A stretch of 64,000 nt of DNA, from positions 124,001 to 188,000 of the forward strand of contig NZ_FNNJ01000004.1 in NCBI RefSeq assembly GCF_900106565.1, read 5' to 3'. The position numbers were made by a program, and so were the translations under genes. Under the pieces are notes generated by a model. It made no database searches, was not told the DNA's origin, and saw only the letters and a list, made by a program, of their open reading frames with translations. The stretch comes from Lutibacter oricola. GTDB lineage: Bacteria > Bacteroidota > Bacteroidia > Flavobacteriales > Flavobacteriaceae. Shown here piece after piece: positions 28,923 to 62,056 of the stretch; position 1 is the stretch's first letter; each line of letters starts with the position of its first letter.

Positions 28923-28977
28923 GTTAAATTATTTATATGGCGAAGATAATAATTATTGAAAGTTTAAAGTATATTAA

Positions 28978-29007
28978 CTAAAAAAAGCTCAAAACATAGT
29001 TTTGAGC
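28978..29007 (-). terminator. Terminator of the L-galactose operon
   Basis: The stem GCTCAAAAC/GTTTTGAGC with a 3-base loop is followed on the minus strand by a run of T. It lies 26 bases after the stop codon of the mutarotase gene, the last gene of the long minus-strand operon. Confidence 0.88.
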
Positions 29008-29032
29008 CTTTCTTAGTTGTGTTGGTCTATTA

Positions 29033-29374
29033 TTAAAGTTTAAAAACTTGTTCTAATGCAATCCATTTTTCGCCATCTTTAGCCCAAGGTAATTCTTGTT
29101 GGTAATTCCACATAAGGTTTTCCCATTCTTGAACTTTAGGATTATTAGCATCCATTTCGGCTTTCTTAACAGGGTCAAAAGTTTTGTCAACTTCCATAAT
29201 CATAAACATACGGTTACCTGTTAGGTAAATTTCCATATCTACAATACCAGCATCTTTAATGCTTTTTGTAATTTCTGGCCACGCATTACCAGCTGCGTGG
29301 TATTCTTTATATTCAGCAATTAATTTAGAATCATCTTTTAAATCACAAGAATAGCAATATCTTTTTGTACTCAT
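29033..29374 (-). CDS. L-sugar mutarotase (RhaM/FucM-like)
   Basis: A 113-residue protein of the L-rhamnose/L-fucose mutarotase family. The signature YHAAGNAWPEITKSIKDAGIVDMEIYLTGNRMFMIMEV includes the conserved His, Trp and Tyr of the sugar pocket. It speeds conversion between alpha and beta anomers of an imported L-sugar so that the dehydrogenase meets the form it uses. Given the rest of the operon, L-galactose, which differs from L-fucose only by a 6-hydroxyl, is the likely substrate. It is the last gene of the operon, 3 bases after fucP, and is followed by a terminator. Confidence 0.87.
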   Translation of the reverse strand: MSTKRYCYSCDLKDDSKLIAEYKEYHAAGNAWPEITKSIKDAGIVDMEIYLTGNRMFMIMEVDKTFDPVKKAEMDANNPKVQEWENLMWNYQQELPWAKDGEKWIALEQVFKL

Positions 29375-29377
29375 TTT

Positions 29378-30700
29378 TTATTTTTTTGATAATTTATAAG
29401 TTGTAAATCCATATAAAGCAACAACAGCTAAACAGATAAGAGGTAAGATAAATGAGAAGTTAACTTCAGGAATAAAACCTAAAACTTTCACGTCAGAGAA
29501 ACCTGATCCACCCCAATCTAAAATACTTCCTTGTAAAACAGGCATTAAAGCACCACCAACAATAGCCATAACTAAACCAGCAGAACCAATTTTAGCTTCA
29601 TCACCCATATCTTTTAATGCAATACCATAAATTGTAGGGAACATAATAGACATAAATACTGAAATAGCTACTAATGAAATCAATCCAGGCATACCAGATA
29701 ATAATACTGCACCTGCAGCACAAATAACACCACCAATACCAAATAACATAAGTAATTTAGAAGGGTTAATTGTTTTCATTAAAGCAGTACCAATCCATCT
29801 ACCAATTAAGAAAGAAACCATAGCTACAACATTAAAATATGTTGCTGTTAATTCCATTCCAAATGTTTCGTTGATATTATCTACATATTGAAAAATGTAT
29901 GTCCAACACATAATTTGTGCGCCAACATAAAATGCTTGAGCTATTACACCAAATACGTAATTTTTATTTGCAAAAAGTTTAGAGAAAGATTCTCCTAACC
30001 CCATTTTGTCTTCTTTGGCTGTTTTTGGCATTTTAGTGAATACAATTATTGCCATAATAGCTAATACTAATACTCCTAAACCAATATATGGTAAGCTAAT
30101 TACACCTAAATCATTTTCTCTAATTACAGCAAGCTCTTCTGAAGATAAAGCGTTGTATGCTTCAGTAGTGTAATCATCAGAACGTAAAGCTCCAATTACA
30201 AATACTTGAGCTATTATCATACCAGATAATGATCCAATAGGGTTAAATGCTTGCGCTAAATTTAAACGTTGAGTAGCAGTTTCTTTATCTCCCATCATTA
30301 AAATTAATGGATTAGAAGTTGTTTCTAAGAAAGCTAAACCACACGTAATTACCCATAATGAAATTAAAAAGTAATTAAACTCTTCATTTGCAGCAGCAGG
30401 ATAGAATAAAAATGCACCAGTTGCATATAAAATTAAACCAAGAATAATACCTGATTTATAACTATATTTTCTAATGAATAAAGCGGCAGGTAGTGCCATA
30501 AAAAAGTATCCGAAATAAAATGCGAATTGAACTAAAGAAGCTTGAACATTTGAAAGTTCTGGCATTACTTTTTTAAACGCAGATACCATTGGGTTTGTTA
30601 AATCATTTGCAATTCCCCAAAGAGCAAATAGTGATGTAATAATTATAAAAGGAAACAATAATTCCTTTCTAACAACTGGGATGTTTTTTAATTTATTCAT
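29378..30700 (-). CDS. fucP: FucP-type L-sugar:H+ symporter (MFS)
   Basis: A 440-residue transporter with twelve hydrophobic helices in the FGHS/FucP subfamily. Marks are FFYGYFFMALPAAL-like segments near the N-terminus, LETTSNPLILMMG in helix 5, AQAFNPIGSLSGMI and a late SIMFPTIYGIALKDMGD. I start it at the ATG at 30700. A longer frame to 30757 would put the start inside a 15-bp hairpin and add residues without homology. FucP is known to import L-fucose and to accept L-galactose; it would bring L-galactose across the inner membrane. Not a SusC-type outer-membrane porter; none is in the window. Confidence 0.88.
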   Translation of the reverse strand: MNKLKNIPVVRKELLFPFIIITSLFALWGIANDLTNPMVSAFKKVMPELSNVQASLVQFAFYFGYFFMALPAALFIRKYSYKSGIILGLILYATGAFLFYPAAANEEFNYFLISLWVITCGLAFLETTSNPLILMMGDKETATQRLNLAQAFNPIGSLSGMIIAQVFVIGALRSDDYTTEAYNALSSEELAVIRENDLGVISLPYIGLGVLVLAIMAIIVFTKMPKTAKEDKMGLGESFSKLFANKNYVFGVIAQAFYVGAQIMCWTYIFQYVDNINETFGMELTATYFNVVAMVSFLIGRWIGTALMKTINPSKLLMLFGIGGVICAAGAVLLSGMPGLISLVAISVFMSIMFPTIYGIALKDMGDEAKIGSAGLVMAIVGGALMPVLQGSILDWGGSGFSDVKVLGFIPEVNFSFILPLICLAVVALYGFTTYKLSKK

Positions 30701-30748
30701 GAAGTTTAATTTATAATTTGGTTGTCTTATTTTATAGGTGCAAAATAG

Positions 30749-30785
30749 AAAAGACAAAACATATTTATAGTATGTTTTGTCTTTT
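30749..30785 (-). promoter_or_regulatory. 15-bp perfect hairpin in the fucP leader
   Basis: The arms at 30749-30763 (AAAAGACAAAACATA) and 30771-30785 are exact complements with a 7-base loop. It lies between the SDR stop and the fucP start on the same transcript. On the minus strand it is followed by TTTTC rather than a long T-run. It may be a partial terminator that lowers downstream expression, or a processing or stabilising element. Confidence 0.65.
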
Positions 30786-30802
30786 ATAATAGAACAAATG
30801 AT

Positions 30803-31594
30803 TTATTCTGATAATAATGATCTGTCTAAATGTACGTAACCACCGTCAACAGTAATAAATTGTCCTGTTGTATGTGATGATTTTTCTGAAATTGTAAATA
30901 AACAAGTATCGGCAATTTCATCAGGTGTTGTCATTCTATTTTCTAAAGGAATTTTCTTTACAATAGATTTTAATTTTTCTTCACCATTTTCTAAAGTTTT
31001 AATCCAAGCATCGTAAGCAGGTGTCCAACTTTCAGCAATAATAATTGCATTAGAACGAATTCCGTATTTAATTAAATCTACAGCCCATTCTCTAGTTAAA
31101 CCTAAAACTCCACCTTTTGAAGCAGCGTAACCAGAAGTTCCTCCTTGACCAGTTAAGCCAACTTTTGAACCAATGTTTAAAATGTTTCCTTTTGATGCTT
31201 TTAAAAACGGTAAACAGTGTTTTACAACTAAAAAGTAGCTTACCATATTTAATTTTAATGAATTCATAAATTCATCATAAGAAGCATCTAATCCAACACC
31301 ATCGTTTACACCAACATTGTTAATTACGGCATCAATTTTTCCGTACTTATCAGTAATAGTTTTAATTGCTTTTTCAATATCATTAGGATTTGTAACATCT
31401 GTTTGGCAGAATGTTGCATCAATTCCTTTATTTTGAAGTTCTTTTACATATTCAAAACCTCTTGCATTTCTGTCTATAATTGCAGGAACTGCACCTTCTT
31501 CAGCTAAATGTTGAAGAATTGTTTCTCCAATACTTCCTTTTATTCCAGCTGCACCACTAATTACAACTACTTTACCTTTTAAACCTAAGTCCAT
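30803..31594 (-). CDS. SDR-family L-galactose/L-fucose dehydrogenase
   Basis: A 263-residue short-chain dehydrogenase. The nucleotide-binding glycine motif SGAAGIKGSIG is at residues 13-23, the NNVG motif near 92-95, and catalytic Ser143, Tyr156 and Lys160 in YAASKGG. A C-terminal block FITVDGGYVHLD closes the fold. In this operon it would oxidise C1 of the L-sugar to the lactone with NAD(P)+. L-fucose dehydrogenases of this family commonly accept L-galactose, and the downstream hexonate enzymes favour L-galactose here. It starts 7 bases after the lactonase stop codon. Confidence 0.8.
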   Translation of the reverse strand: MDLGLKGKVVVISGAAGIKGSIGETILQHLAEEGAVPAIIDRNARGFEYVKELQNKGIDATFCQTDVTNPNDIEKAIKTITDKYGKIDAVINNVGVNDGVGLDASYDEFMNSLKLNMVSYFLVVKHCLPFLKASKGNILNIGSKVGLTGQGGTSGYAASKGGVLGLTREWAVDLIKYGIRSNAIIIAESWTPAYDAWIKTLENGEEKLKSIVKKIPLENRMTTPDEIADTCLFTISEKSSHTTGQFITVDGGYVHLDRSLLSE

Positions 31595-31601
31595 AGTATT
31601 A

Positions 31602-32432
31602 TTATTTTATATTGTAGAATATTTTAGCATTTTCGCCCATAATTGAGGCTTGTTCTGTAGAACTAAATTGTGCTATAAATTCTGTTACTAATTCTTTTAT
31701 TTTTTTATAATTTCCTGCAACCAAGCAAACTGGCCAATCTGAACCAAACATAATTCTCTTCCAGCCAAATGAAGCGTAAACCAATTTCATATATGGTAGA
31801 ATTTGTTCTGGCGTCCAAGTTGTATAATCAGCTTCGGTAACCATACCTGAAAGTTTACAATATACATTATCACACTTACCAATTTCAAACATTAAAGCTG
31901 CCCAACCGTCATAAAAACCATCTTTTATATACGGTTTAGCAATATGATCTATCACAAATTTTTGATTTGGAAATCTTTTTACTAACTCCAAAACTGCACC
32001 TAATTGATGTGGAAATACTAAAATATCGTATGTGAAATTATATTTTTCTAAAGCGGCAATTCCTCTTAAAAAATCTGGACGCAATAAAAAGTTGTGATCA
32101 GGTTCACCTTGCACAACGTGTCTAAAACCTTTCAGTTTTGGATACTTGCTGTATGTTTCTAAAACTTCTTCAATATTTTTGGCTCTTAAATCTACCCAAC
32201 CAACAATTCCTTTTATAAAATCGTTTTTATCGGCTAAATCTAGAAGGAAATCAGTTTCTTCTAATGTTTGATCTGCTTGTACAGCAACACAACCATCAAT
32301 TCCGTTTTCAGCATATACCTTTTGTAAATCCGAAGGCATAAAATCTTTACGAATTACCGACATAGCATCGTCAATCCATTCGTGTTTTACAGGTTCGTAT
32401 TTCCAAAAGTGCTGATGTGAATCAATAATCAT
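31602..32432 (-). CDS. Amidohydrolase-family L-galactono/L-fucono-lactonase
   Basis: A 276-residue TIM-barrel hydrolase of the amidohydrolase 2 family. The metal motif HQH is at residues 6-8 (IDSHQHFWKY). Later come the KGFRHVVQGEPDHNFLLRPDF segment, the family's DHIAKP, and the catalytic Asp in MFGSDWPV. This subgroup (COG3618) contains L-fuconolactonases, L-rhamnonolactonases and the L-galactonolactonase described in Bacteroides. It would open the lactone made by the SDR to L-galactonate in the cytoplasm. Tight spacing to uxaB (8 bases) and the SDR (7 bases) puts it in one operon. Confidence 0.83.
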   Translation of the reverse strand: MIIDSHQHFWKYEPVKHEWIDDAMSVIRKDFMPSDLQKVYAENGIDGCVAVQADQTLEETDFLLDLADKNDFIKGIVGWVDLRAKNIEEVLETYSKYPKLKGFRHVVQGEPDHNFLLRPDFLRGIAALEKYNFTYDILVFPHQLGAVLELVKRFPNQKFVIDHIAKPYIKDGFYDGWAALMFEIGKCDNVYCKLSGMVTEADYTTWTPEQILPYMKLVYASFGWKRIMFGSDWPVCLVAGNYKKIKELVTEFIAQFSSTEQASIMGENAKIFYNIK

Positions 32433-32440
32433 AGTAGAAA

Positions 32441-33877
32441 TTATTTTACAAAAGCGTCTAAAGTCGCTTTCATTCCATTATTTAAAATTGCTTCTAAATG
32501 TGTTGTAACTTCTTCTTGAAGACCATCAATTTCAGTTAAATCAGTTCCCCAGAAATCTGTATTTGATAACGTTTTTTCAGCAACTTCAACAAAATTATTA
32601 CTAGCCCAAGCTTCTTTAAAGAAATCTAAAACAGCAGCATCATCTTTTAATGCAATTGCAGTTCCGTTTCTATCACCTTTATAAAAAGCAATTAAAGCAG
32701 CTAAAGAGAATAATAAGTTTTTAGGTAACTCATTTTTACGTTTTACAAATTCTAAAACTGAAGGTAAAACTCTTGTTTTATATTTTGAAACTGAATTTAA
32801 TGAAATACTCATTAATTCGTGCGCTAAATAAGGGTTTCTGAAACGATCTAAAACATCTGCAGAAAACTGACTTAATTCTTCAGCAGGTAAATCTAGAGTA
32901 GGAGAGATATCATTAAATAAAGCATTCTTTAAGAATTTACCAACAACTTCATCTTCTAAAGATTCACGAACTCTATCAATTCCATATAAATAACCAACAG
33001 GAACTAGGGTAGTGTGAGCACCATTTAAAATACGTACTTTACGAGTTCTGTAAGGTTCCATATTGTCTGTAAATACAACATTTAACCCACAAGCTTCAGA
33101 AGGAAATTCATCTTTTACAGATTCTGGTCCTTCTATAACCCATAAATGGAATTGTTCACCTTCAACAACTAAATTATCTTTATAACCTAATTCTTCAGTA
33201 ATAGCATCCATTTTATCACGTGGGTAACCTGGTACAATTCTATCAACTAAAGTGTTACAGAAAATATTGTCTTCATTAATCCATTCAACAAACTCATCAC
33301 CTAAATTCCAGTCAGCAGCATATTGTAGGATTATTTTCTTTAAGTTATCTCCATTTCTATCAATTAATTCACAAGGAATTACAATTAAACCTTTATCTGA
33401 AGCACCTCCAAAAGTTTGAAATCTTTTATACATTAAAGCAGTTATTTTTCCTGGGAAACTACTTTGAGGAGCATCATCTAATTTATCATCAGCGTTGTAA
33501 GAAATTCCAGCTTCGGTTGTATTAGAAATAATAAAACGTAAATCAGGGTTTTCAGCATTTGCTATATAATCAGCATTGTTTTCGTAAGGATTAATTCCTC
33601 TTGTAATACAGTCAATTACATCCTTTTCACTTAAAACTTCACCGTTTTTAATTCCGTTTAAGTATAAAGTGTATAAACCATCTTGATCGTTTAGCATTTT
33701 AACCAAACCTTGATCAATAGGTTGAACAACAACAACTCCAGCATCGAAGTCTGCTTTTTTGTTCATTTCGTGAAACATCCAGTTTGCAAAGGCTCTTAAA
33801 AAGTTACCTTCTCCAAATTGTAAAATTCTTTCAGTATAAGTTTGTGCTTCTACTGTTGTTCTATTTAATGATTTCAT
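32441..33877 (-). CDS. uxaB: Tagaturonate reductase (altronate oxidoreductase)
   Basis: A 478-residue member of the mannitol dehydrogenase / UxaB family. The N-terminal Rossmann part begins with RILQFGEGNFLRAF. Central catalytic blocks are FCNTLVDRIVPGYPRD and RKVRILNGAHTTLVPVGYL, with the family Lys in KVRILN and the His in NGAH. It reduces D-tagaturonate to D-altronate with NADH. In galacturonate users the tagaturonate comes from UxaC; none is encoded here, so the upstream zinc alcohol dehydrogenase acting on L-galactonate is the likely source. Between this gene and uxaA lie 96 bases containing a repeat fragment. Confidence 0.9.
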   Translation of the reverse strand: MKSLNRTTVEAQTYTERILQFGEGNFLRAFANWMFHEMNKKADFDAGVVVVQPIDQGLVKMLNDQDGLYTLYLNGIKNGEVLSEKDVIDCITRGINPYENNADYIANAENPDLRFIISNTTEAGISYNADDKLDDAPQSSFPGKITALMYKRFQTFGGASDKGLIVIPCELIDRNGDNLKKIILQYAADWNLGDEFVEWINEDNIFCNTLVDRIVPGYPRDKMDAITEELGYKDNLVVEGEQFHLWVIEGPESVKDEFPSEACGLNVVFTDNMEPYRTRKVRILNGAHTTLVPVGYLYGIDRVRESLEDEVVGKFLKNALFNDISPTLDLPAEELSQFSADVLDRFRNPYLAHELMSISLNSVSKYKTRVLPSVLEFVKRKNELPKNLLFSLAALIAFYKGDRNGTAIALKDDAAVLDFFKEAWASNNFVEVAEKTLSNTDFWGTDLTEIDGLQEEVTTHLEAILNNGMKATLDAFVK

Positions 33878-33930
33878 TTATTATTGAGCTTTTTGCTATT
33901 AGCTTGTGGCTTTTAGCTATTTATTTTTAA

Positions 33931-33956
33931 GGGGCTTCGACTACGCTCAGCCACCG
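33931..33956. repeat. Fragment of a flavobacterial interspersed repeat
   Basis: The GC-richer string CTTCGACTACGCTCAGCC stands out in an AT-rich gap. I recall it as part of a repeat scattered between genes in Flavobacteriaceae. Just before it, variants of AGCTTTT/TTAGCTAT are repeated several times. It interrupts the operon between uxaA and uxaB without an obvious terminator. Confidence 0.45.
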
Positions 33957-33973
33957 TTACTTTTTCAAATTTC

Positions 33974-35620
33974 TTATAACGAAATTCCTCTTTTCCAAGG
34001 AATAAAATCGTTATGCCCTTTAACTACTGCTTTTGATGGAGTTTCTCCACTTGCAACTCTAATTACGTGGTCTAATACTTTTTCACCCATTGTTTGAATG
34101 GTATCTTCACCAGTAATTACTGTACCTGCATTAATATCAATAATGTCATTCATTTTTTCATACAATTCTGTATTACTAGACATTTTTAAAACAGGTGTAA
34201 TAGGGTTTCCTGTTGGTGTACCTAAACCAGTTGTAAACACAATAACGTTACAACCAGAACCAGCTAAACCGGTAGTACTCTCAACATCATTACCAGGTGT
34301 ACATAATAAGTTTAACCCTGGTTTTGTAATTTTTTCAGCATAATCTAATACTTCAACAACTGGAGATGTTCCACCTTTTTTAGCGGCACCTGCAGATTTC
34401 ATTGCATCTGTAATTAAACCATCTTTAATGTTTCCTGGAGAAGGATTCGCTTCAAATCCAGAACCTACAGCAACAGCTGCTGCAGAATAAGAACGCATAA
34501 TTGAAGAGAATTTTTTAGCATCGTCTTCATTTACACATCTATTAATAATATTTTGTTCAACTCCATTTAATTCTGGGAATTCAGATAAAACTGGAGAACC
34601 ACCAAGAGCAGCTAATAAATCTGCAGCATAACCTAATGAAGGATTTGCAGAAATTCCAGAGAATCCATCAGAACCACCACATTCTAATCCTAAAACTAAT
34701 TTGCTTAGTGGAGCTGGTTTACGTTCAATTTTGTTAGCTTCCATTAAACCTACAAAAGTATGTTTAACAGCTTCTTCAATTAAAGCACGTTCGCTTGAAC
34801 TTTTTTGTTGTTCTAAAAAATGAACAGGTTTTGTATTTGATTTTGCTTCTAATGCTTTTTCAAGCATTTCAATTTGTGCGTTTTGGCAACCTAAACTAAA
34901 AATGGTAGCACCAGCAACATTAGGGTTTGTAATGTAACCAGCTAATAAATTACATAATACTTCAGAATCTTGACGAATTCCTCCACAACCACCATCGTGT
35001 TTTAAAAACTTAATACCATCTACATTTTTGAAAAGTCTGTTTTTAGAAATTTCTTCTTTTGTAGCAATAATTGGTGTGTTGTAAATATCGTCATTTGAAG
35101 CTCCTGCTTTGTACTGTGCAATTAAAGCATCAGTATCTACAGCAAAATCTTTTTTAGTTTCGTAACCTAATTTTTCAGAAAGCGCACCTTCTAAAACATC
35201 AATATTTCTGTTTTCGCAAAAAGTTAAAGGAATAACTAACCAATAATTTCCAGTTCCTACGCTACCATCTTCACGGTGATAACCATTAAAAGTTCGTCCT
35301 TCAAAATTAGAAGTGTCTGGAGCTGTCCAAACAAATTTTTCATTTGAATCATTAAAATCGGCTGAAGCATGTTTAATGTTTTCAGTAGTAATAGCTTCTC
35401 CTTGTTGAATAGGAAGCACAGCCTTACCAACTAAAACACCATACATAAATATTTCATCACCTACAGCAAAATCTTTTACAGCAAACTTATGTTTACTTTT
35501 AATGTTTTCTTTTAAAATGATTTCTTCACCATTAACAACCGTTTTTAATCCTTGTGGAAGATTGTCAATAGCTACAATTAAATTGTCTATTGGATCTATT
35601 TGAGCGTAATTCGCAGACAT
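33974..35620 (-). CDS. uxaA: Altronate dehydratase
   Basis: A 548-residue enzyme with an N-terminal SAF domain (residues 1-95, ending in AVLPIQQGEAITTENI) and a large C-terminal catalytic part. Marks are KHDGGCGGIRQDS, FSLGCQNAQIEML, LGLECGGSDGFSGISANPSLGYAADLL, TPGNDVESTTGLAGSGCNVIVFTTGLGTPTGNPITPVLK and GHNDFIPWKRGISL. It removes water from D-altronate to give 2-keto-3-deoxygluconate, using iron or manganese. Full length, so SAF and catalytic parts are fused as in E. coli UxaA. It is central to the operon, after KDPG aldolase (36-base gap). Confidence 0.93.
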   Translation of the reverse strand: MSANYAQIDPIDNLIVAIDNLPQGLKTVVNGEEIILKENIKSKHKFAVKDFAVGDEIFMYGVLVGKAVLPIQQGEAITTENIKHASADFNDSNEKFVWTAPDTSNFEGRTFNGYHREDGSVGTGNYWLVIPLTFCENRNIDVLEGALSEKLGYETKKDFAVDTDALIAQYKAGASNDDIYNTPIIATKEEISKNRLFKNVDGIKFLKHDGGCGGIRQDSEVLCNLLAGYITNPNVAGATIFSLGCQNAQIEMLEKALEAKSNTKPVHFLEQQKSSSERALIEEAVKHTFVGLMEANKIERKPAPLSKLVLGLECGGSDGFSGISANPSLGYAADLLAALGGSPVLSEFPELNGVEQNIINRCVNEDDAKKFSSIMRSYSAAAVAVGSGFEANPSPGNIKDGLITDAMKSAGAAKKGGTSPVVEVLDYAEKITKPGLNLLCTPGNDVESTTGLAGSGCNVIVFTTGLGTPTGNPITPVLKMSSNTELYEKMNDIIDINAGTVITGEDTIQTMGEKVLDHVIRVASGETPSKAVVKGHNDFIPWKRGISL

Positions 35621-35656
35621 ATTAGTAGTTAGTTATTTCTTTAATTTAATTTTTAA

Positions 35657-36325
35657 TTATCCTCTTACTTCTTTGATTAATGCCATAGCTTCTTCAACTT
35701 TGGCTTTTAATCCGTCGTAATCTTTGTTAGCAATAATTTCTTTTGAAATTAATTGAGAACCCATTCCAACGCAAGTAACACCTGCATTAAACCAACCTTC
35801 TAAGTTTTCTTTATTTGGAGCAACACCACCAGTTGGCATAACGCTAGTCCAAGGTTGAGGTCCTTTAATTCCTTTTACAAATTGAGGTCCGTAAATATCA
35901 CCAGGGAATAATTTAACAATCTCACAGCCTAATTCTTCAGCTCTAGTAATTTCAGTTAAAGTTCCACATCCAGGAGACCATAAAACTTTACGTCTGTTAC
36001 AGGCAATTGCAATATCTTCTCTTAATACAGGAGTTACAATAAAGTTAGCTCCTAAAGCCATATATAATGAAGCTGCAGCTCCATCAGTTACTGAACCAAC
36101 ACCCATAATCATTCCAGGTAATTCAGCAATTGCATATTTTGTTAATTCGCCAAAAACTTCGTGAGCGAAATCTCCACGAGCAGTAAATTCCATTAATCTT
36201 GCACCACCATCGTAACAAGCTTTTAATACTTTTTTACTTAATTCTATATCGTTATTAAAAAACAAAGGAATCATTCCTGTTTCTTTCATTGCGTTTGCAA
36301 CTTCTATTCTTGTAAATTGTGCCAT
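35657..36325 (-). CDS. kdgA: 2-keto-3-deoxy-6-phosphogluconate aldolase
   Basis: A 222-residue TIM-barrel aldolase. The Schiff-base lysine is Lys138 in EIVKLFPGDIYGP. The supporting Glu46 lies in MEFTARG, the equivalent of the EVTLR motif. GSVTDGAAASLYMALGANFIVTPV and MPTGGVAPNKENL are typical. It splits KDPG to pyruvate and glyceraldehyde-3-phosphate, the last step of the pathway encoded by this operon. The family also cleaves KDPGal, but the uxaA product (KDG) makes KDPG the expected substrate. The preceding kinase gene ends 89 bases upstream, with a small hairpin between them. Confidence 0.92.
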   Translation of the reverse strand: MAQFTRIEVANAMKETGMIPLFFNNDIELSKKVLKACYDGGARLMEFTARGDFAHEVFGELTKYAIAELPGMIMGVGSVTDGAAASLYMALGANFIVTPVLREDIAIACNRRKVLWSPGCGTLTEITRAEELGCEIVKLFPGDIYGPQFVKGIKGPQPWTSVMPTGGVAPNKENLEGWFNAGVTCVGMGSQLISKEIIANKDYDGLKAKVEEAMALIKEVRG

Positions 36326-36356
36326 TTTTAATATTTATTTTATAAAATTAAAGGAA

Positions 36357-36377
36357 AACTGAGCATGGAACTCAGTT
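36357..36377 (-). repeat. Small intercistronic hairpin between kdgK and kdgA
   Basis: The arms AACTGAG and CTCAGTT pair around a 7-base loop. There is no adjacent T-run, so it is more likely an mRNA stability or processing element than a terminator. Confidence 0.4.
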
Positions 36378-36414
36378 CTCCAATAAAGCCAAAATTAATT
36401 AATATTCTATTTTG

Positions 36415-37461
36415 TTATCTTGCTACTCTACCTGAAGCATCACCACCCATTAGTTTGTTAACTTCGTCAACAGTAACTAAATTAGCATCACCTTTAATAG
36501 TGTGTTTTAAACAAGATGCAGCAACTGCAAAGTCTAATGCATTTTGATCATCTTCTGGGTATTTAAGTAATCCGTAGATTAAACCTCCCATAAATGAATC
36601 TCCACCACCAACTCTATCTACTATATCAGTAATTTGATATTGACGAGTTTCTAACATTTGTTTACCATCATATAAAACTCCAGCCCAAGTGTTGTGAGAT
36701 GCAGAAATTGAACCTCTTAAAGTAGTAATTACTTTTTTAGCTCTTGGGAATTTCTCCATCATTTGCTCACAAACAGACAAGAAAGCTTCAGCTTTAACAT
36801 TGTGTCCAGCAGTTTGAACAGCAGCACCATCAGGCTTAATACCAAAATGCATTTCAGCATCTTCTTCATTTCCTAAAATAACATCACAGTAAGATGTAAT
36901 TTCAGTCATAATAGCTTCTCTATGCGCATCGTCACAGAAATTCCAAAGTTTAGCACGGTAATTTAAATCTGTAGAAATAGTAATACCTAATTTGCTAGCA
37001 GCTTTAACAGCTTCTAAACAAACATCTGCAGCTCCTTGAGAAATTGCTGGAGTAATACCAGTCCAATGGAACCATTCAGCACCATCAAAAACTTCTTCCC
37101 AGTTAATCATTCCTGATTTTATTTCAGACATAGCAGAATGTGCTCTATCGTAAACAACTTTAGATCCACGAGATACAGCACCAGTTTCTAAAAAGTAGAT
37201 TCCTAAACGATCTCCACCATAAACTATTTTGTCTACACCAACGCCTCTTTTACGCATTTCCATCATTGCACACTCACCAATATCATTTTTAGGTAAACGA
37301 GTTACAAAATCTACAGGTACTCCATAGTTTGCTAAAGATACTGCTACGTTAGATTCTCCACCACCATAGATAGCGTCAAAATTGTTTGCTTGAGAAAATC
37401 TCAAAAATCCTTGAGGAGCTAATCTTAACATGATTTCTCCAAATGTTACTACTTTTTTCAT
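36415..37461 (-). CDS. kdgK: 2-keto-3-deoxygluconate kinase (PfkB family)
   Basis: A 348-residue sugar kinase. The N-terminal block TFGEIMLRLAPQGFLRFSQANNFDAIYGGGESNVAVSLANYG is a KDG kinase signature. The C-terminal PfkB motif VDRVGGGDSFMGGLIYGLL carries the catalytic Asp and the anion hole. It phosphorylates KDG to KDPG with ATP in the cytoplasm. It follows the zinc dehydrogenase gene by 28 bases and precedes the aldolase gene, so kinase and aldolase act on successive intermediates. The stretch near residue 240 and the ~25 residues after the PfkB motif are typical of this subgroup. Confidence 0.92.
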   Translation of the reverse strand: MKKVVTFGEIMLRLAPQGFLRFSQANNFDAIYGGGESNVAVSLANYGVPVDFVTRLPKNDIGECAMMEMRKRGVGVDKIVYGGDRLGIYFLETGAVSRGSKVVYDRAHSAMSEIKSGMINWEEVFDGAEWFHWTGITPAISQGAADVCLEAVKAASKLGITISTDLNYRAKLWNFCDDAHREAIMTEITSYCDVILGNEEDAEMHFGIKPDGAAVQTAGHNVKAEAFLSVCEQMMEKFPRAKKVITTLRGSISASHNTWAGVLYDGKQMLETRQYQITDIVDRVGGGDSFMGGLIYGLLKYPEDDQNALDFAVAASCLKHTIKGDANLVTVDEVNKLMGGDASGRVAR

Positions 37462-37489
37462 TGTTGTTATTATTTATTTTGATTGATTA

Positions 37490-38503
37490 CTATATTTTAA
37501 AATCTACAGTTGCTTTCATAACACCTGTTTCTAAATCACACCAGCTATCAAAGTTGGCAATCATTTCTGTATAAGGAACATTATGAGTGATATATGAATC
37601 TGTAGGGAATTGATCTAATACACTTATTACGTGTTCAAAATCTTCTGTAGTTGCATTTCTACTACACATTAATGTCATTTCTTTTGCGTGTACTTTTGGA
37701 TGTGTGTATGTTAGTTCTCCTTTAGATAACCCAACTAATACAAATCTTCCTCCGTGTGCCATATAATCTGGACAAGCTTCTAAAGCAAATTTATTTCCTG
37801 AAGCATCAAAAACTGCAGTAGCTAAATCTCCATTTGTAATTTCAGAAATAGCTTCAACAGGATTGTTACCAGCATTTACAATATAATCTACACCAATTTT
37901 ATCTTTAGCATAAGCCAATCGTTGGTCATTCATGTCAAGTGCAATAACTTTTGCTCCTGCAATTTGAGCTAATTTCATTATTCCAATACCAATTGGTCCG
38001 CAACCAACAACAACTACAGTTTCTCCTGGTTTTATGTCGGCTCTTCTAACAGAATGTGCTCCAATTGCTAAAGGTTCAACAATAGCCATTTGATCATCAG
38101 ATAAATTATTTGCAGGTAATAGAATATCAGCAGGAACAGTAATTTGCTCTTGCATTCCACCATCTCCATGAACACCTAATACTGAAATATTAGTACAGCA
38201 GTTAGTTTTACCATTTCTACAAGCAATACATTTACCACAGCTAACATATGGCATTACAACTACTTTATCTCCAGCTTTAATTCCTCTAGCATTTTCTCCA
38301 ATTTCTAATACTTCTGAAGCTAATTCGTGACCTAAAATTCTCGGGTAGCTAAAGAAAGCTTGGTTTCCGCCATAAGCGTGAATATCTGTTCCGCAAATTC
38401 CAACTTTATTAATTTGTAATAAAGCTTCGTTTTCTTTTCTAATTGGTGCTTCTTTTTCTTTTAGAATAAATTCACCTGGTTTTTCGCAAACTATGTATTT
38501 CAT
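37490..38503 (-). CDS. Zinc alcohol dehydrogenase, probable L-galactonate 5-dehydrogenase
   Basis: A 337-residue medium-chain dehydrogenase. The catalytic zinc site is Cys38 in GICGTDIHAYGG, with His59-Glu60 in LGHE. The structural zinc cysteines are 89, 92, 95 and 103. The Rossmann motif is VVVGCGPIGIGIMKLAQ (about residues 165-181). Related enzymes oxidise secondary hydroxyls of sugar acids: LgoD-type enzymes of E. coli and a Bacteroides enzyme convert L-galactonate to D-tagaturonate. That reaction links the lactonase to uxaB, and no other enzyme here can do so. First gene of the operon, directly behind the LacI operator. Confidence 0.85.
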   Translation of the reverse strand: MKYIVCEKPGEFILKEKEAPIRKENEALLQINKVGICGTDIHAYGGNQAFFSYPRILGHELASEVLEIGENARGIKAGDKVVVMPYVSCGKCIACRNGKTNCCTNISVLGVHGDGGMQEQITVPADILLPANNLSDDQMAIVEPLAIGAHSVRRADIKPGETVVVVGCGPIGIGIMKLAQIAGAKVIALDMNDQRLAYAKDKIGVDYIVNAGNNPVEAISEITNGDLATAVFDASGNKFALEACPDYMAHGGRFVLVGLSKGELTYTHPKVHAKEMTLMCSRNATTEDFEHVISVLDQFPTDSYITHNVPYTEMIANFDSWCDLETGVMKATVDFKI

Positions 38504-38532: not shown

Positions 38533-38552
38533 TTGTTCAAACGTTTGAGCAA
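38533..38552. promoter_or_regulatory. LacI-family operator upstream of the L-galactose operon
   Basis: TTGTTCAAACGTTTGAGCAA is palindromic in 18 of 20 positions, with the central CG typical of LacI operators. It sits 30 bases before the first gene of the operon, beside a TAATTTG string on the minus strand that may be the -7 element. A near-identical copy lies at 38671. Confidence 0.8.
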
Positions 38553-38642: not shown

Positions 38643-38673
38643 TTTGATATTTCGTAAAAAGAGTTTACATTTG
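38643..38673 (+). promoter_or_regulatory. Promoter of the lacI-type regulator gene
   Basis: A -33 TTTG at 38643-38646 and a -7 TACATTTG at 38666-38673 are separated by 19 bases, matching the Bacteroidota consensus. Transcription would start near 38680. This rules out a coding start at 38644, which is open in frame but inside the promoter. Confidence 0.7.
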
Positions 38674-38690
38674 TTCAATCGTTTGAGCAA
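38671..38690. promoter_or_regulatory. LacI-family operator over the regulator's own promoter
   Basis: TTGTTCAATCGTTTGAGCAA differs from the operator at 38533 at one base. It overlaps the end of the -7 element and the expected transcription start, so the regulator should repress its own gene. It ends 13 bases before the TTG start codon. Confidence 0.8.
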
Positions 38691-38703
38691 ATGTATAAAA
38701 AAG

Positions 38704-39732
38704 TTGGGAAATAAAAAAAAAACTACGATAAAAGATATTGCTAATGTTTTAGGTATAACACCTTCTGCAGTGTCTAGGGCTTTAAATAATCATCCAAGGA
38801 TTAGTGAGAAGACTAAAATTGCTGTTAAGCAAGTTGCTGAAAATTTAAATTATCAGCCAAATCATTTGGCAAGTGCACTTAGAAAAGGGAAAAGTAATTT
38901 GGTTGGTGTAATAATTCCAAGAAATAATAGTAACTTTTTTTCTTCAGTATTAGAAAATATTGAAGAAGTTTTAAACAAAAAAGGGTATAATATTATTATT
39001 ACTCAATCTAATGAATCTTACAAAAAAGAATGTAGTAGTATTGAAGCTCTTTTATATACACAGGTTGATGGTGTTATAGCTTCTATGGCAAATGAAACTG
39101 TAGATTTAAGTTATTACGAGAAAATTAAATCAAAAGGAATTCCTTTAATTTTATTTGATAGAGGAGAAAATGATTTAAATGTAGATTATGTGGGTATTGA
39201 TGATTATTTAACTAGTCATATGATTGTTGAGCACTTACTAGATCAGGGTTGTAAAAGAATTGCTCATATAGCCGGATATAGTAAAACTAGAATTTATAAA
39301 AATAGAATTAGAGGGTATAATGATGCTCTTGAAAAACATGGCTTACCTATTGAAAAAGATTTAATTATTGAAAGTAATTTAAGGTTAAATGATGGGCGTA
39401 GAGTTATGCAAGAGCTTTTAAATTTAAATGAACGACCAGATGCTGTTTATGCTGCTGGTGATTATGCTGCTTTAGGTGCTTTGCAAGTTTTAGAAGAACA
39501 GGGAATAAAAGTTCCAGAAGAAATTGCTTTAGTTGGTTTTAGTAACGAGCCTTTTACTTCTTTTGTAAAACCATCAATTTCAACTATAGATCAAAAAAGT
39601 GCATTAATTGGTAAGTTAGCCGCAGAAGCCTTTTTAGAAAGAGTAAATAACCCAAAAGTAAAAGCAAGCTTAAACAAAATAATTGTCGATGCAGAATTAA
39701 TAATAAGAGATTCTTCAAACAAAAAAGAATAG
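38704..39732 (+). CDS. LacI-family transcriptional repressor of the L-galactose operon
   Basis: A 342-residue regulator. The helix-turn-helix TIKDIANVLGITPSAVSRALNNHPRISEKTK opens the protein and the hinge follows at NYQPNHLASALRKGKSN. A periplasmic-binding-like sensor domain (residues 60-335) ends with SNEPFTSFVKPSISTIDQ. I choose the TTG at 38704 (GNKKKTTIKDIA): an upstream in-frame TTG at 38644 lies in the promoter, and the ATG at 38691 is out of frame and stops after seven codons. It is divergent from the catabolic operon, with an operator at each side. The inducer is probably an L-galactose pathway intermediate. Confidence 0.88.
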   Translation: MGNKKKTTIKDIANVLGITPSAVSRALNNHPRISEKTKIAVKQVAENLNYQPNHLASALRKGKSNLVGVIIPRNNSNFFSSVLENIEEVLNKKGYNIIITQSNESYKKECSSIEALLYTQVDGVIASMANETVDLSYYEKIKSKGIPLILFDRGENDLNVDYVGIDDYLTSHMIVEHLLDQGCKRIAHIAGYSKTRIYKNRIRGYNDALEKHGLPIEKDLIIESNLRLNDGRRVMQELLNLNERPDAVYAAGDYAALGALQVLEEQGIKVPEEIALVGFSNEPFTSFVKPSISTIDQKSALIGKLAAEAFLERVNNPKVKASLNKIIVDAELIIRDSSNKKE

Positions 39733-39795: not shown

Positions 39796-42700
39796 ATGAG
39801 AAATAAGTTTACATATTGGCCACTAGTAATATTGTTAGTAGTAGGCTTTTTATTCACTAATTCAAGCTTTGCTCAAAGTTCAATAAGTTTTGACCATTTA
39901 TCTACAAAAAATGGATTGTCTCAAAATGATGTAAATGCAATTTATCAAGATAATAAAGGTTTTATGTGGTTTGGTACTCATGATGGGTTAAACCGTTATG
40001 ATGGATATAATTTTTCGATATATAAACCTAAAGCAAATGATAATTATAGTATAAATAGTACATTAATTTGGAACATAGTTGGTGATAACAATGGAAATTT
40101 GTGGATAGGTACTACAGGGAATGGACTAAATTATTTCGATAAAACTACTGAGAAATTTAAACATATTACTCATAATGATAAAGACGAAAATAGCTTAAAT
40201 AATGATTATGTAAAGCATGTGTTTTTAGACAATGAAAAGCGTCTTTGGGTTTCAACTAGAACAGGTTTAGATGTTGTTGACGTTTCCAAATCTTTAGATT
40301 CATTAAAATTCGATCATTTTAAATTAAGCCGGGATAATTTTAAATCGGCAAAAGGATATTGTACAATTACATTTATATTTCAAGATAGTCAGAATCAAAT
40401 TTTAATTGGTGGTCCCAAAGGGTTGTTTAAGGTGGTAAAAGATAAGCAAGGGAATTATAACTTTCAGAATTTGAATGTATCCTTAAACTGGGCACCTACG
40501 TCCATTAGAGGTATACGTGAAGATGAGTTTGGTAGATTGCTAATAACTTCTTTTAACGGGTTGCATATAGTTGATTTAAAAGAGCAAACTCACAAGTTAT
40601 TAAAAGTTCCTTTACGAGGAGGAAACAATATTGCTGTTGGAAATGGACACATTTGGGTTGGAGGAACAGAAGGATTATACCATTTTGAAAATAGTGAAAA
40701 AAATCAGAAACCTAAATTTTTGAATCAATATACATACGATCCAAAAAGTACGATTAGTAGTTTAAGTAAAAATGAAGTTACATCATTATTTGTTGATAAA
40801 ACTGGAATTGTTTGGATTGGAACAAATGGAGGTGGAGTTAATATTTTTGATCCGGAGAGCAAACAATTTAAACTTATTCAAAAAACATCAGATCTCAACA
40901 GTTTAAGTAATGATAATATACGCTCCATTTTTGAAGATAGTAATGGTACATTATGGGTAGGTACTGAAGGTGGAGGTTTAAATATATTGAAAAAAGAAGA
41001 TAGTAAAAATTATAATAAATTTATTAATATTAAAAAAGTTGCTAACCCTTTTGTTATCAAAGAAATAAAACGAGGGGATAAGAAGTTTGTACTTGTTGGG
41101 GGGCAAAATTCCCCAGGTATTTTCAAAGTAGATATAACAAATTTTACTAATATTTCTGAAACTAGTTTAACTCCTTTGTTTAGTGGTATTTCAAGCGTTT
41201 TTTCTTTGTTAGAGGATAGTTCGCAAAACTTATGGGTTGGAACTTATTCTACTGGGGTAATTAGGTGTTTAAAAAGTGATTCTATAGGTGATTACAAAAG
41301 AGATATTTTATCAAATAATATTAATAATAATAAAAGTATTTCAAACGATATTATTAGAGATATTGTTGAAGATAGGAAAGGTAATATTTGGTTTGCAACA
41401 GGAAATGGGTTGTCGAGATTAACAAAAAAAGAAACTTCAAAAAAGAATCCAAAGTTTAGAATATATAAAAATATAAAAGATGATGAACATAGTATAAGTC
41501 ATAATTATATTTTATCTATTTATGAAAGCGATAAAGGAGAAATGTGGTTTGGAACGTTTGGAGGAGGCTTAAATAAACTTATTAGATCGGTTGATGGAAA
41601 AAGTGATTCATTTAAGGTTTATTCTGAAAAAGACGGACTGCCAAATAATGTAATTAAAGGAATTTTAGAAGATAATGATGGTAATTTATGGCTGTCTACT
41701 AATAAAGGTTTATCAAAATTTAATCCAAATACAGAGGTTTTTAAGAATTATGACACAAATGATGGGTTGCAGAATGATGAATTTGGTGAGTTAGCGCATT
41801 TCAAAAAAAGTAACGGAGAAATGATGTTTGGTGGAGTTAGTGGTTTTAATAGTTTTTTTCCTGATGAAATTAAAGATAATTCGGTTAAAGCTGAAACTGT
41901 AATTACAAGTTTTTCAATTTTTAATAAACCTATTGGAATAAATGAAGAAGTTAACGGAAGAGTAATATTAAATAAATCTATAAATGAAATTGATCAAATA
42001 GATTTAGAATATAAAGAAAATAGCTTTTCTTTTGAATTTGCAGCTTTACATTATGCGGCTCCTCAAAAAAATAAATATGCGTATAAATTAGAAGGGTTTA
42101 ATAACGATTGGATTTATACATCTTCAGAAAAAAGATTTGCTACTTATACAAATCTGGAACCAGGTTTGTATACTTTAAAAGTTAAAGCTTCTAATAACGA
42201 TGGTTTATGGGATGAATCTCCATCAATTCTAAAAATTAATGTTATTCCTCCATTCTGGAGAACAAGTTTTGCAAAACTAATTTATGTATTGTTATTTGTT
42301 GGTAGTTTATTTTTGTTTAGAAGATTTACAATTATTAGATCAACTAAAAAACATCAGTTAGAGTTAGAGCATCTTGAAAAAGATAAATATGAAGAAATTC
42401 AACGATTAAAATTAGAGTTTTTTACAAATATTTCACACGAATTTAGAACACCTTTAACTTTAATAAAAGGCCCGTTAGAATATTTACAAAAAAAAGGAGA
42501 TAACGTTGAGCCTCAAAAAGTACAAGAACAATATAGTTTAATGCATAAAAATATTGATTATTTGTTGAGGTTGGTAAATCAGCTGTTGGATTTTAGAAAA
42601 ATGGATAAGGGAAAAATGAGTTTGACTGTTGGAAAAAGCGATTTAATCGATTTTATAAAAGTAGTTGGAGAACCTTTTCAGTTTTTAAGTAGTAAAAAAG

Positions 42701-44064
42701 ATATAGATTTTAAAATAAATGCTAAAAGTAAAGAGTTACGAACATGGTTCGATCCAGATGCTGTTGAAAAAATAATGAACAACTTGCTTTCCAATGCATT
42801 TAAATTTACTCCTGAAAAAGGAACAGTGGAAATTGAAATAATTGAAGGTATTAATTATACTGCTCCAGAAGGGTTGAAAACCAAAACAGATAAATCTAAT
42901 TATGTTGTAATTCAGGTTAAAGATTCTGGACCAGGAATACCAAAGCATAGAATTAACTTTATTTTTGAACGTTTTTATGTAGATAGAGATGTTCGAAAAA
43001 TTAACTCAGAAGGTTCTGGTATTGGTTTAGCCTTCACCAAAAAATTAGTTGAACTACATAGAGGTAGTATAGATGTTGTAAGTGATGAAACACAGGGAAC
43101 TAACTTTGTTGTTTGGTTACCAAAAGATAAGCAATCATACGAAAATATAAATGATATATCTTTTAGTGATGTATTAGAAAGTCAAACATTTATTAACGAA
43201 ATGAATGCGGAAGTTCATGCAGTTGGAGTGTTTGATGATATTGTAGATCAAAACTTATCAAGGTCTAGATCTAAATTACCAATATTATTGGTAGTTGATG
43301 ATAATGCTGATATTAGAGGAGTTATTAAACAAGGTTTAGGTGAATTTTACGATATTTATGAGGCGGAAAACGGTGAGCGTGGTTTTGAACTAGCAAAAAA
43401 ATTAGTTCCAAATATTGTGTTAACGGATATTTTAATGCCAGTTATGGATGGAATTGAATTTTGTAATAAGCTTAAAACGGTTCAAGAAACAAGTCATATT
43501 CCAGTTGTAATGTTAACTGCAAAAACATCACAAGAATGGGAGATTGAAGGATTAAGAACTGGAGCAGATGCTTATATAAGAAAACCTTTTGATATGGAGT
43601 TATTAGAGCTTAAACTTCAAAATATATTAAAACATAGAGAAGAACTTAGAAAACGATTCAATAGAAAAACAACTTTACAACCTAACGAAGTTACAGTGAC
43701 TTCTACAGACGAAAAGTTTTTACAAAAAGCAATTGACATTGTAGAAAAACATATGATGAACTCTGAATTTAGTGTGGAGCTTTTAGTTAAAGAAATGAGT
43801 TTAAGTAGAAGTAATCTATATTTAAAAATAAAAGAACTTACTGGTTTATCTTCTAGTGAATTTATTAGAAATATTCGTTTAAAAAGAGCAGTTCAATTAC
43901 TAGAAAAAAGCGATTTATCTGTAAAAGAAATTATGTATATGACTGGTTTTAATACAGCTTCATATTTTTCTAAATGTTTTAAGAAACAATTTGGTGTAAT
44001 ACCTAGCAAGTATGTAAGACAAGGAGTTACCGAAGAAGAGGGAGAGGCAAAAAATGATAAATAA
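39796..44064 (+). CDS. Hybrid two-component system regulator (HTCS)
   Basis: A 1422-residue one-protein sensor and regulator. A signal peptide (1-27, ending SSFAQ) is followed by a periplasmic double propeller of reg_prop repeats with recurrent LWVGT/GLNRYD/GGGLN strings (about 40-700). A Y_Y_Y domain (about 740-815) and one transmembrane helix (about 822-845) follow. The cytoplasmic part has HisKA with His881 in SHEFRTPLTLI, an ATPase domain (DSGPGIP, SGIGLAFTKK), a receiver domain with Asp1211 in TDILMPVMDG, and a C-terminal AraC helix-turn-helix. HTCS proteins sense oligosaccharides and switch on the adjoining polysaccharide locus. It precedes the sulfatase and glycosidase genes and so probably controls them. 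Confidence 0.95.
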   Translation: MRNKFTYWPLVILLVVGFLFTNSSFAQSSISFDHLSTKNGLSQNDVNAIYQDNKGFMWFGTHDGLNRYDGYNFSIYKPKANDNYSINSTLIWNIVGDNNGNLWIGTTGNGLNYFDKTTEKFKHITHNDKDENSLNNDYVKHVFLDNEKRLWVSTRTGLDVVDVSKSLDSLKFDHFKLSRDNFKSAKGYCTITFIFQDSQNQILIGGPKGLFKVVKDKQGNYNFQNLNVSLNWAPTSIRGIREDEFGRLLITSFNGLHIVDLKEQTHKLLKVPLRGGNNIAVGNGHIWVGGTEGLYHFENSEKNQKPKFLNQYTYDPKSTISSLSKNEVTSLFVDKTGIVWIGTNGGGVNIFDPESKQFKLIQKTSDLNSLSNDNIRSIFEDSNGTLWVGTEGGGLNILKKEDSKNYNKFINIKKVANPFVIKEIKRGDKKFVLVGGQNSPGIFKVDITNFTNISETSLTPLFSGISSVFSLLEDSSQNLWVGTYSTGVIRCLKSDSIGDYKRDILSNNINNNKSISNDIIRDIVEDRKGNIWFATGNGLSRLTKKETSKKNPKFRIYKNIKDDEHSISHNYILSIYESDKGEMWFGTFGGGLNKLIRSVDGKSDSFKVYSEKDGLPNNVIKGILEDNDGNLWLSTNKGLSKFNPNTEVFKNYDTNDGLQNDEFGELAHFKKSNGEMMFGGVSGFNSFFPDEIKDNSVKAETVITSFSIFNKPIGINEEVNGRVILNKSINEIDQIDLEYKENSFSFEFAALHYAAPQKNKYAYKLEGFNNDWIYTSSEKRFATYTNLEPGLYTLKVKASNNDGLWDESPSILKINVIPPFWRTSFAKLIYVLLFVGSLFLFRRFTIIRSTKKHQLELEHLEKDKYEEIQRLKLEFFTNISHEFRTPLTLIKGPLEYLQKKGDNVEPQKVQEQYSLMHKNIDYLLRLVNQLLDFRKMDKGKMSLTVGKSDLIDFIKVVGEPFQFLSSKKDIDFKINAKSKELRTWFDPDAVEKIMNNLLSNAFKFTPEKGTVEIEIIEGINYTAPEGLKTKTDKSNYVVIQVKDSGPGIPKHRINFIFERFYVDRDVRKINSEGSGIGLAFTKKLVELHRGSIDVVSDETQGTNFVVWLPKDKQSYENINDISFSDVLESQTFINEMNAEVHAVGVFDDIVDQNLSRSRSKLPILLVVDDNADIRGVIKQGLGEFYDIYEAENGERGFELAKKLVPNIVLTDILMPVMDGIEFCNKLKTVQETSHIPVVMLTAKTSQEWEIEGLRTGADAYIRKPFDMELLELKLQNILKHREELRKRFNRKTTLQPNEVTVTSTDEKFLQKAIDIVEKHMMNSEFSVELLVKEMSLSRSNLYLKIKELTGLSSSEFIRNIRLKRAVQLLEKSDLSVKEIMYMTGFNTASYFSKCFKKQFGVIPSKYVRQGVTEEEGEAKNDK

Positions 44065-45833: not shown

Positions 45834-49133
<3,300 letters not shown>

Positions 49134-62008: not shown

Positions 62009-62034
62009 AAAAGTACATAAAAATATGTACTTTT
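62009..62034. promoter_or_regulatory. Perfect 11-bp palindrome in a divergent promoter, with -7 element
   Basis: The arms AAAAGTACATA and TATGTACTTTT pair exactly around four A. The right arm contains TACTTTTG (62028-62035), a TAnnTTTG -7 match for the plus-strand gene, about 20 bases before its ATG. The palindrome lies between divergent genes and may be an operator for one or both. Confidence 0.55.
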
Positions 62035-62056
62035 GAATAAACATATTTTAATTACC

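Follow-up and report, generated by a model that had tools for sequence, protein, structure and literature searches.

L-galactose is a rare sugar of red-seaweed porphyran. In Bacteroides vulgatus, its conversion to D-tagaturonate by a dehydrogenase, a lactonase and an L-galactonate dehydrogenase, with BVU_0219 and BVU_0222 as the loci concerned, was reportedly described by Hobbs in 2014, and in Escherichia coli the genes of an L-galactonate pathway are scattered. The latter pathway comprises LgoD, UxaB, UxaA, KdgK and a 2-keto-3-deoxy-6-phosphogluconate (KDPG) aldolase (PMC12632266). In Luteolibacter sp. LG18 the lguABCDEF genes take L-galactose through tagaturonate, altronate, 2-keto-3-deoxygluconate (KDG) and KDPG to pyruvate and glyceraldehyde 3-phosphate, with support from gene disruption (PMC12632266; here and below, statements on published work refer to the accessible portions of the cited reports). 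We describe a run of nine genes in a 64,000-nucleotide stretch of the genome of Lutibacter oricola (contig NZ_FNNJ01000004.1, positions 124,001 to 188,000; henceforth the window), which we interpret, with a probability of roughly 0.83, as an operon for L-galactose catabolism in a marine flavobacterium, tied to the use of red-algal galactans of the porphyran or agar type.

The run shows the following order: zinc dehydrogenase, KDG kinase, KDPG aldolase, UxaA, UxaB, lactonase, short-chain dehydrogenase/reductase (SDR), the permease FucP and a RhaM-family mutarotase (Table 1). Its nine open reading frames (ORFs) lie between 29033 and 38503, all on the minus strand and with 3-96 nucleotides between them as listed, in agreement with a preliminary description of this DNA as nine genes on one strand with short gaps. 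The window belongs to one contig (C15) of a 4.12-Mb genome in 57 contigs. At the family level, every step from L-galactose to pyruvate and glyceraldehyde 3-phosphate has a gene in this single run.

The comparison with the described systems brings out both shared and distinct features. The route to D-tagaturonate is like that of B. vulgatus, but its first enzyme is an SDR here and BVU_0219, which clusters with the plant L-galactose dehydrogenase, there (PMC12632266); an aldo-keto reductase does, however, occur in some relatives of this operon, as shown below. With E. coli it shares the segment from L-galactonate via tagaturonate to KDPG, the difference being that the E. coli pathway starts from the acid. 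The Luteolibacter cluster likewise gathers most of the route genes in one place, but it comes from another phylum, uses a first enzyme of the BVU_0219 cluster rather than an SDR, has its working KDG kinase encoded outside the cluster, also serves L-glucose, and has no lactonase named in the portions of the report available (PMC12632266). The SDR and lactonase families are common to the oxidative L-fucose genes of Burkholderia multivorans (SDR 4gvx and lactonase BmulJ_04915), whose lower route, unlike the present one, runs through fuconate dehydratase to pyruvate and lactate (PMC11293516). On the side of the polysaccharide, porphyran breakdown to single sugars has been worked out in Bacteroides plebeius, whose porphyran utilization locus similarly combines a GH86 porphyranase, GH2, a sulfatase and a GH29 α-L-galactosidase as the source of L-galactose, but with no L-galactose catabolic operon described in the accessible text (PMC12316285). 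An expression study of Zobellia names L-galactose as an agar and porphyran component, and the cluster that it describes is for 3,6-anhydro-L-galactose and is not this operon (PMC5613140); gene deletions have been reported for Zobellia galactanivorans (PMC5698469). The open-licence literature searched, in its accessible portions, yielded no L-galactose operon in marine Bacteroidota, no porphyran link, no operator and no exchange of SDR for aldo-keto reductase. The chemistry of the route is thus largely known from B. vulgatus, E. coli and Luteolibacter; newer are its seaweed context and a first enzyme that can be exchanged.

In the route that we infer, L-galactose would be liberated by a porphyranase and sulfatases together with a GH29 L-galactosidase whose gene lies elsewhere in the genome; FucP would import the sugar, and the RhaM-family protein would speed the exchange of its anomers. 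The SDR is predicted to convert L-galactose to L-galactonolactone and the amidohydrolase to open the lactone, upon which the zinc dehydrogenase would oxidize L-galactonate at C5 to give D-tagaturonate. Reduction of the latter to D-altronate by UxaB would in effect amount to a C5 epimerisation; UxaA would then dehydrate D-altronate to KDG, the kinase would phosphorylate KDG to KDPG, and the aldolase would yield pyruvate and glyceraldehyde 3-phosphate. The divergently encoded LacI-type protein may repress the operon from two palindromes, with one of the pathway's sugars or sugar acids as the inducer. L-galactose as the substrate, as first proposed, is supported by the adjoining porphyranase-type cluster, the GH29 relatives of exo-α-L-galactosidase, the exchange of the first enzyme between SDR and aldo-keto reductase, and related genomes that have the operon and lack UxaC.

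The families assigned in the preliminary description hold in NCBIfam and Pfam searches, five of them at the family level. FucP, the SDR (FucosDh, L-fucose dehydrogenase), UxaB (tagaturonate reductase) and the KDPG aldolase score above their NCBIfam cut-offs. The lactonase (262.9 against a cut-off of 400 bits), the zinc dehydrogenase (196.7 against 376, with no model over its cut-off), UxaA (266 against 731, and that to galactarate dehydratase), the kinase (484 against 700, to a model of a fusion) and the mutarotase (21.5 against 99.6) remain below theirs and are therefore family-level calls; the models leave the substrate of UxaA between altronate and galactarate. Pfam cut-offs are exceeded for the mutarotase, UxaA, kinase and lactonase families. 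Among solved structures, the lactonase is closest to 4dlf, which we take to be the B. multivorans lactonase BmulJ_04915, and the zinc dehydrogenase to RspB (4ilk); the Cys, His and Glu columns of the latter enzyme, presumably its zinc ligands, are invariant across 18 sequences. The closest solved relatives of the SDR are 4gkb and 4gvx, the second of which is the B. multivorans L-fucose dehydrogenase (PMC11293516).

For comparison across organisms we took as named loci those of the 80 best-ranking among 583 zinc dehydrogenase relatives, several of which end at contig edges: UxaA or UxaB is present in 40 of them and FAH hydrolase and/or SDR genes of the fucose type in 14, with three loci in both sets. 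In a zinc dehydrogenase tree of 108 rows, with labels taken from the gene runs only and not from the wider locus table, the window falls in a supported set (98/92) of 63 rows. Besides the window, this set comprises 48 rows whose run includes UxaA/UxaB and 14 that bear neither label; the 15 rows with the FAH-type label are placed in two separate clades. Tree and locus context together tie the zinc dehydrogenase to UxaA/UxaB. Two columns of the zinc dehydrogenase (198 and 327) separate Uxa-type from FAH-type loci at thresholds of 90% in one group and 70% in the other. A further group, from Paenibacillus (L129-L131, L133, L134, L137, L138), has zinc dehydrogenases at 52-58% identity that form a clade of their own.

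A striking variation concerns the first enzyme. Lutibacter agarilyticus (L070) is the nearest named relative with an operon uncut by a contig end. The genes there run from the zinc dehydrogenase through UxaA, UxaB, the lactonase and an aldo-keto reductase to FucP and RhaM, and the aldo-keto reductase occupies the exact slot of the SDR. Simple absence of the SDR from this locus was considered and rejected, as the ORFs show its replacement. Across the 40 UxaA/UxaB loci, the SDR alone (at least 60% identity) is found in 28, the aldo-keto reductase alone (at least 40%) in four (L070, L076, L081 and L082), both in none and neither in eight. The best solved relative of the aldo-keto reductase, and five of its seven best solved relatives, are named L-galactose dehydrogenase. 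The distal end of the route is variable too: among the 37 named loci with UxaA/UxaB in the run, a KDG kinase homologue is present in 14 and an aldolase homologue in 13, and where they are missing these steps would have to be supplied by other genes.

The intergenic region and the start of the divergent regulator gene each contain the palindrome TTGCTCAAACG(T/A)TTGAACAA, around 38534-38551 and 38672-38689. With up to two mismatches, the window has six strand-matches at three places against 0.13 expected, the third place (two mismatches) being inside uxaB, and in the whole genome at 0-1 mismatch only the two places ahead of the operon match. Genome-wide matches with two mismatches were rejected as sites, their numbers being 9 and 9 against 3 and 6 for a backwards control. 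Since the pattern was derived from the window, only relatives test it: among those with a divergent regulator, 13 of 16 keep a site at no more than one mismatch over 17 fixed positions, and L042, L073 and L077 have none at that threshold. The aldo-keto reductase loci L070, L081 and L082 also have the site at up to one mismatch. In L042, L073 and L077, the KDG kinase and KDPG aldolase genes lie apart from the operon, flanked by two LacI-type genes, and the operator-like sites found there have another core, TTGCTAAAACGATGTAGCAA-like.

The link to seaweed galactans extends beyond the window. Among 149 genomes of the family, including this one, 27 encode the zinc dehydrogenase (E <= 1e-60); nine were dropped before one of the counts (seven lacking both UxaA and UxaB within the 14-20 kb read, one in which UxaA adjoins genes of the fucose type and one with a distant zinc dehydrogenase), leaving 18 operon genomes, of which G006, G011, G021 and G134 show UxaB and no UxaA in the ORF table. 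With kinship ignored, the GH86 C-terminal module occurs in 8 of the 18 operon genomes against 3 of the 131 others (p = 1e-6), in 7/17 against 3/131 when this genome is removed (p = 7e-6), and in 8/27 against 3/122 when all zinc dehydrogenase genomes are taken (p = 5e-5). The PL7 alginate lyase, found in 38 genomes (one under the cut-off), shows no association with the operon among the same genomes (7/18 against 31/131, p = 0.25; 10/27 against 28/122, p = 0.15).

GH29 enzymes of two kinds are encoded in 15 of the 40 UxaA/UxaB loci as opposed to none of the 14 fucose-type FAH/SDR loci, and in four loci the GH29 gene lies inside the operon, between uxaB and the lactonase gene. When one GH29 of each kind (that of L041 and the L. 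oricola L149) was compared with solved structures, 7snk and 7ljj led, ahead of fucosidases; L149 has 69-76% identity to the second GH29 kind of the operon loci, and 7snk is BpGH29, the exo-α-L-galactosidase of the B. plebeius porphyran locus (PMC12316285). The exo-α-L-galactosidase-like GH29 of this genome lies on contig C29, in a porphyran-type locus (L161, G000:C29:68000-87900) with SusCD, GH86, GH2, GH43-CBM6, a sulfatase and a PfkB kinase. Porphyran is composed of D-galactose and sulfated L-galactose units (PMC5613140, PMC5943477). In Flammeovirga pacifica, which grew on porphyran and not on pectate, adjoining tagaturonate reductase and altronate dehydratase genes were assigned to galacturonate (PMC5385347). 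In genome G061 (L043), a single same-strand run combines a GH86 (60% identical to that of the window), the 322-residue neighbor described below, GH29, an operon of the aldo-keto type and two sulfatases; G061 also carries another copy of the zinc dehydrogenase gene, which lies in a fucose-type locus (L048).

On the divergent side of the operon, the window itself encodes regulators and polysaccharide-degrading enzymes (Table 1). The GH86 enzyme retrieves the β-porphyranase 4aw7 first among solved structures (1e-109) and a β-agarase next (5e-92), and the order of the regulators, sulfatase and GH2 is kept in two named Lutibacter records (L069 and L070). No SusCD pair was found among the scanned ORFs of 39796-63316 (the scan began at 28922). 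Adjoining the porphyranase-like gene, 53039-54007 encodes a 322-residue protein with no Pfam match, a 47% relative of which lies beside the L043 porphyranase; further out, 62033-63316 encodes an HD-domain protein with the Pycsar-effector transmembrane domain (PF18967).

Table 1. Features of the operon, its divergent regulator and the neighboring polysaccharide genes (window coordinates)
Feature	Position	Strand	Basis
Terminator-like hairpin, 3' of the last gene	28976..29018	-	hairpin scan
RhaM-family mutarotase (PF05336)	29033..29374	-	below the NCBIfam L-rhamnose mutarotase cut-off
FucP-type sugar:H+ symporter	29378..30700	-	over cut-off; ATG start favoured over TTG at 30757
SDR of the L-fucose dehydrogenase family, proposed L-galactose 1-dehydrogenase	30803..31594	-	over cut-off; YxxxK at 156
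Amidohydrolase lactonase, proposed L-galactono-1,5-lactonase	31602..32432	-	family models, solved relative
UxaB tagaturonate reductase	32441..33877	-	NCBIfam over cut-off; only Mannitol_dh_C match of the genome
UxaA-type altronate dehydratase (family level)	33974..35620	-	only match of the genome
KDPG aldolase	35657..36325	-	NCBIfam over cut-off
PfkB-family KDG kinase	36415..37461	-	NCBIfam (under cut-off), Pfam
Zinc alcohol dehydrogenase, first gene; proposed L-galactonate 5-dehydrogenase (to D-tagaturonate)	37490..38503	-	models, structure relatives, tree
Palindromic operator-like site 1, TGCTCAAACGTTTGAACA, ahead of the zinc dehydrogenase gene	38534..38551		palindrome search
LacI-family regulator, divergent; true start probably further in	38644..39732	+	ORF, family models
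Palindromic operator-like site 2, at the start of the lacI-type gene	38672..38689		palindrome search
Hybrid two-component regulator, 63 nucleotides past the lacI-type gene	39796..44064	+	domain scan
Sulfatase	44217..45746	+	domain scan, solved relatives
GH2 β-galactosidase	45873..49133	+	domain scan, solved relatives
GH97 enzyme	49143..51245	+	domain scan
Sulfatase; closest solved relatives are carrageenan sulfatases	51459..52886	+	domain scan, solved relatives
GH86 β-porphyranase-like enzyme	54011..55819	+	domain scan; best solved relative 4aw7

The preliminary description had further claimed a terminator at the end of the run and a single transcript joining the L-galactose route to the lower uronate steps. 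A terminator-like hairpin, with a stem of at least 20 pairs and a T-rich tail, is indeed present at 29018-28976, and the joining of the two halves stands as one cluster, with a precedent in the lguABCDEF genes of Luteolibacter (PMC12632266). The single transcript, as worded there, is unproven: the gaps are short, yet two further hairpins lie between genes, at 36381-36353 (kinase/aldolase) and 30785-30749 (SDR/fucP), in a scan that counted 10 terminator-like sites over 11.2 kb where shuffled sequences gave 4.6. The two hairpins could lower the expression of the genes downstream of them. The second also contains the TTG listed as the start of fucP (30757), which probably starts instead at the ATG at 30700, making the gap between the SDR gene and fucP 102 nucleotides.

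Several observations weigh against an L-galactose operon. GH29 is chiefly a fucosidase family, and none of the 14 GH29 genes of this genome is on the contig of the window. Five of the nine proteins score under their own NCBIfam cut-offs, the SDR family carries the L-fucose name, and no SDR column splits Uxa-type from FAH-type loci at the 90% and 70% thresholds used above, as is likewise the case for the lactonase. The aldo-keto reductase scores almost equally well against IolS (1.2e-21) and L-galactose dehydrogenase (5.5e-22) and has no NCBIfam match at 1e-30, and the fucose-type locus of this genome contains a 53% relative of it. The zinc dehydrogenase also occurs in fucose-type loci devoid of UxaA/UxaB, and L048, inside the 63-row set of the tree, carries FAH-type genes by the wider locus table. 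For neither sulfatase of the window is the solved exo-L-galactose-6-sulfatase the nearest structure. The GH86 module and PL7 are also associated with each other (p = 9e-4), in genome counts that ignore kinship. Finally, UxaC is enriched in genomes with the operon (14/18 against 41/131, p = 3e-4), in a Belliella locus (L135) uxaC shares one locus with uxaB, uxaA and a distant zinc dehydrogenase (59%), and galacturonate may share the use of the operon.

Several of these points relate to L-fucose. The genes might form an L-fucose operon, or a dual upper route in which the SDR, lactonase, FucP and mutarotase take both sugars and the resulting acids diverge later. The SDR does pass the L-fucose dehydrogenase model, HSD17B14, another SDR-type L-fucose dehydrogenase, accepts L-galactose, more slowly (PMC11293516), and near relatives of the SDR, lactonase and zinc dehydrogenase accompany fucose-type FAH hydrolase and SDR genes. 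We nevertheless regard this as unlikely. L-fuconate lacks a C6 hydroxyl, and the KDG analogue derived from it could therefore not be phosphorylated at C6; moreover, an oxidative L-fucose operon would be expected to encode a fuconate dehydratase, a ketodeoxyfuconate dehydrogenase and a FAH hydrolase, and family scans of 29033-38503 found none of these. A separate locus of the genome (L037, G000:C26:46000-65000) combines a GH29 of the fucosidase family, a 231-residue RhaM-like protein, FucP, a zinc dehydrogenase (42%), an aldo-keto reductase, a KduD-like SDR and an enolase-superfamily dehydratase, with no lactonase seen, and looks like a fucose-type route. Elsewhere, L060, L065, L111, L139-L147 and others show the zinc dehydrogenase, SDR and lactonase families together with a FAH hydrolase and a fucose-type SDR, and no UxaB.

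The run could instead be a hexuronate operon, in which UxaC from elsewhere feeds tagaturonate derived from galacturonate to UxaB, UxaA, the kinase and the aldolase, with the upper genes as a side branch. The preliminary description had excluded this, along with the fuconate route, by the lack of uxaC and fuconate dehydratase; this is true of the operon itself and not of the genome, which has two uxaC genes as well as the enolase-family dehydratase of its fucose-type locus, and in view of the former we set that argument aside. One uxaC belongs to a glucuronate-type set with uxuA, an SDR, a TRAP-type transporter and a LacI-type gene (the last three named by eye), and the other is an orphan inside a GH2/sulfatase cluster. 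Since this operon encodes the sole UxaB-family protein and the sole UxaA match of the genome, galacturonate could share its lower half, and the enrichment of UxaC and the Belliella locus point the same way. However, a galacturonate (uxaCBA) operon would have uxaC in it, beside it or under the same operator, and neither uxaC of this genome is so placed: with up to two mismatches no operator match was found at either uxaC locus. Among loci L040-L148, uxaC is found in L135 and in L041 (G017), where it lies beside the operon but inside a set with uxuA and its SDR, as in the glucuronate-type set here; in G006 it lies about 16 kb from the operon on the same contig. UxaC is missing in 4 of the 18 operon genomes: G021 (with UxaB at 41% only), G036, G051 (88% complete) and G084. 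Both G036 and G084 (99% complete) have the zinc dehydrogenase, UxaA, UxaB, lactonase, SDR or aldo-keto reductase, FucP and RhaM, and no kinase or aldolase at the operon locus. A hexuronate function would also leave the SDR, lactonase, FucP and zinc dehydrogenase with no part to play, and we consider it quite improbable. A broader rare-sugar operon (for L-glucose, L-gulose or D-arabinose), modeled on the dual pathway of Luteolibacter, whose lgu enzymes act on both L-glucose and L-galactose (PMC12632266), is very improbable indeed, as no epimerase family for the C4 step is found among the nine genes and the adjoining porphyranase-type cluster would supply L-galactose.

Returning to L-galactose catabolism as the preferred function, we lean, with some reserve, towards a more general proposal: that marine Bacteroidota share a widespread dedicated L-galactose regulon, defined by one LacI-type repressor and its TTGnTCAAACGnTTGAnCAA operator, which would be the main fate of porphyran-derived L-galactose. 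In this regulon the slot of the first enzyme could be filled by either of two unrelated folds, SDR or aldo-keto reductase, while the kinase and aldolase that end the route would be optional. If the reading as an L-galactose operon is right, it would name the missing step downstream of porphyran depolymerisation and supply genes to search for in bacteria of the gut and in those that degrade seaweed. It would also be a clear example of unrelated enzymes, two in number, catalysing one reaction in the same operon.

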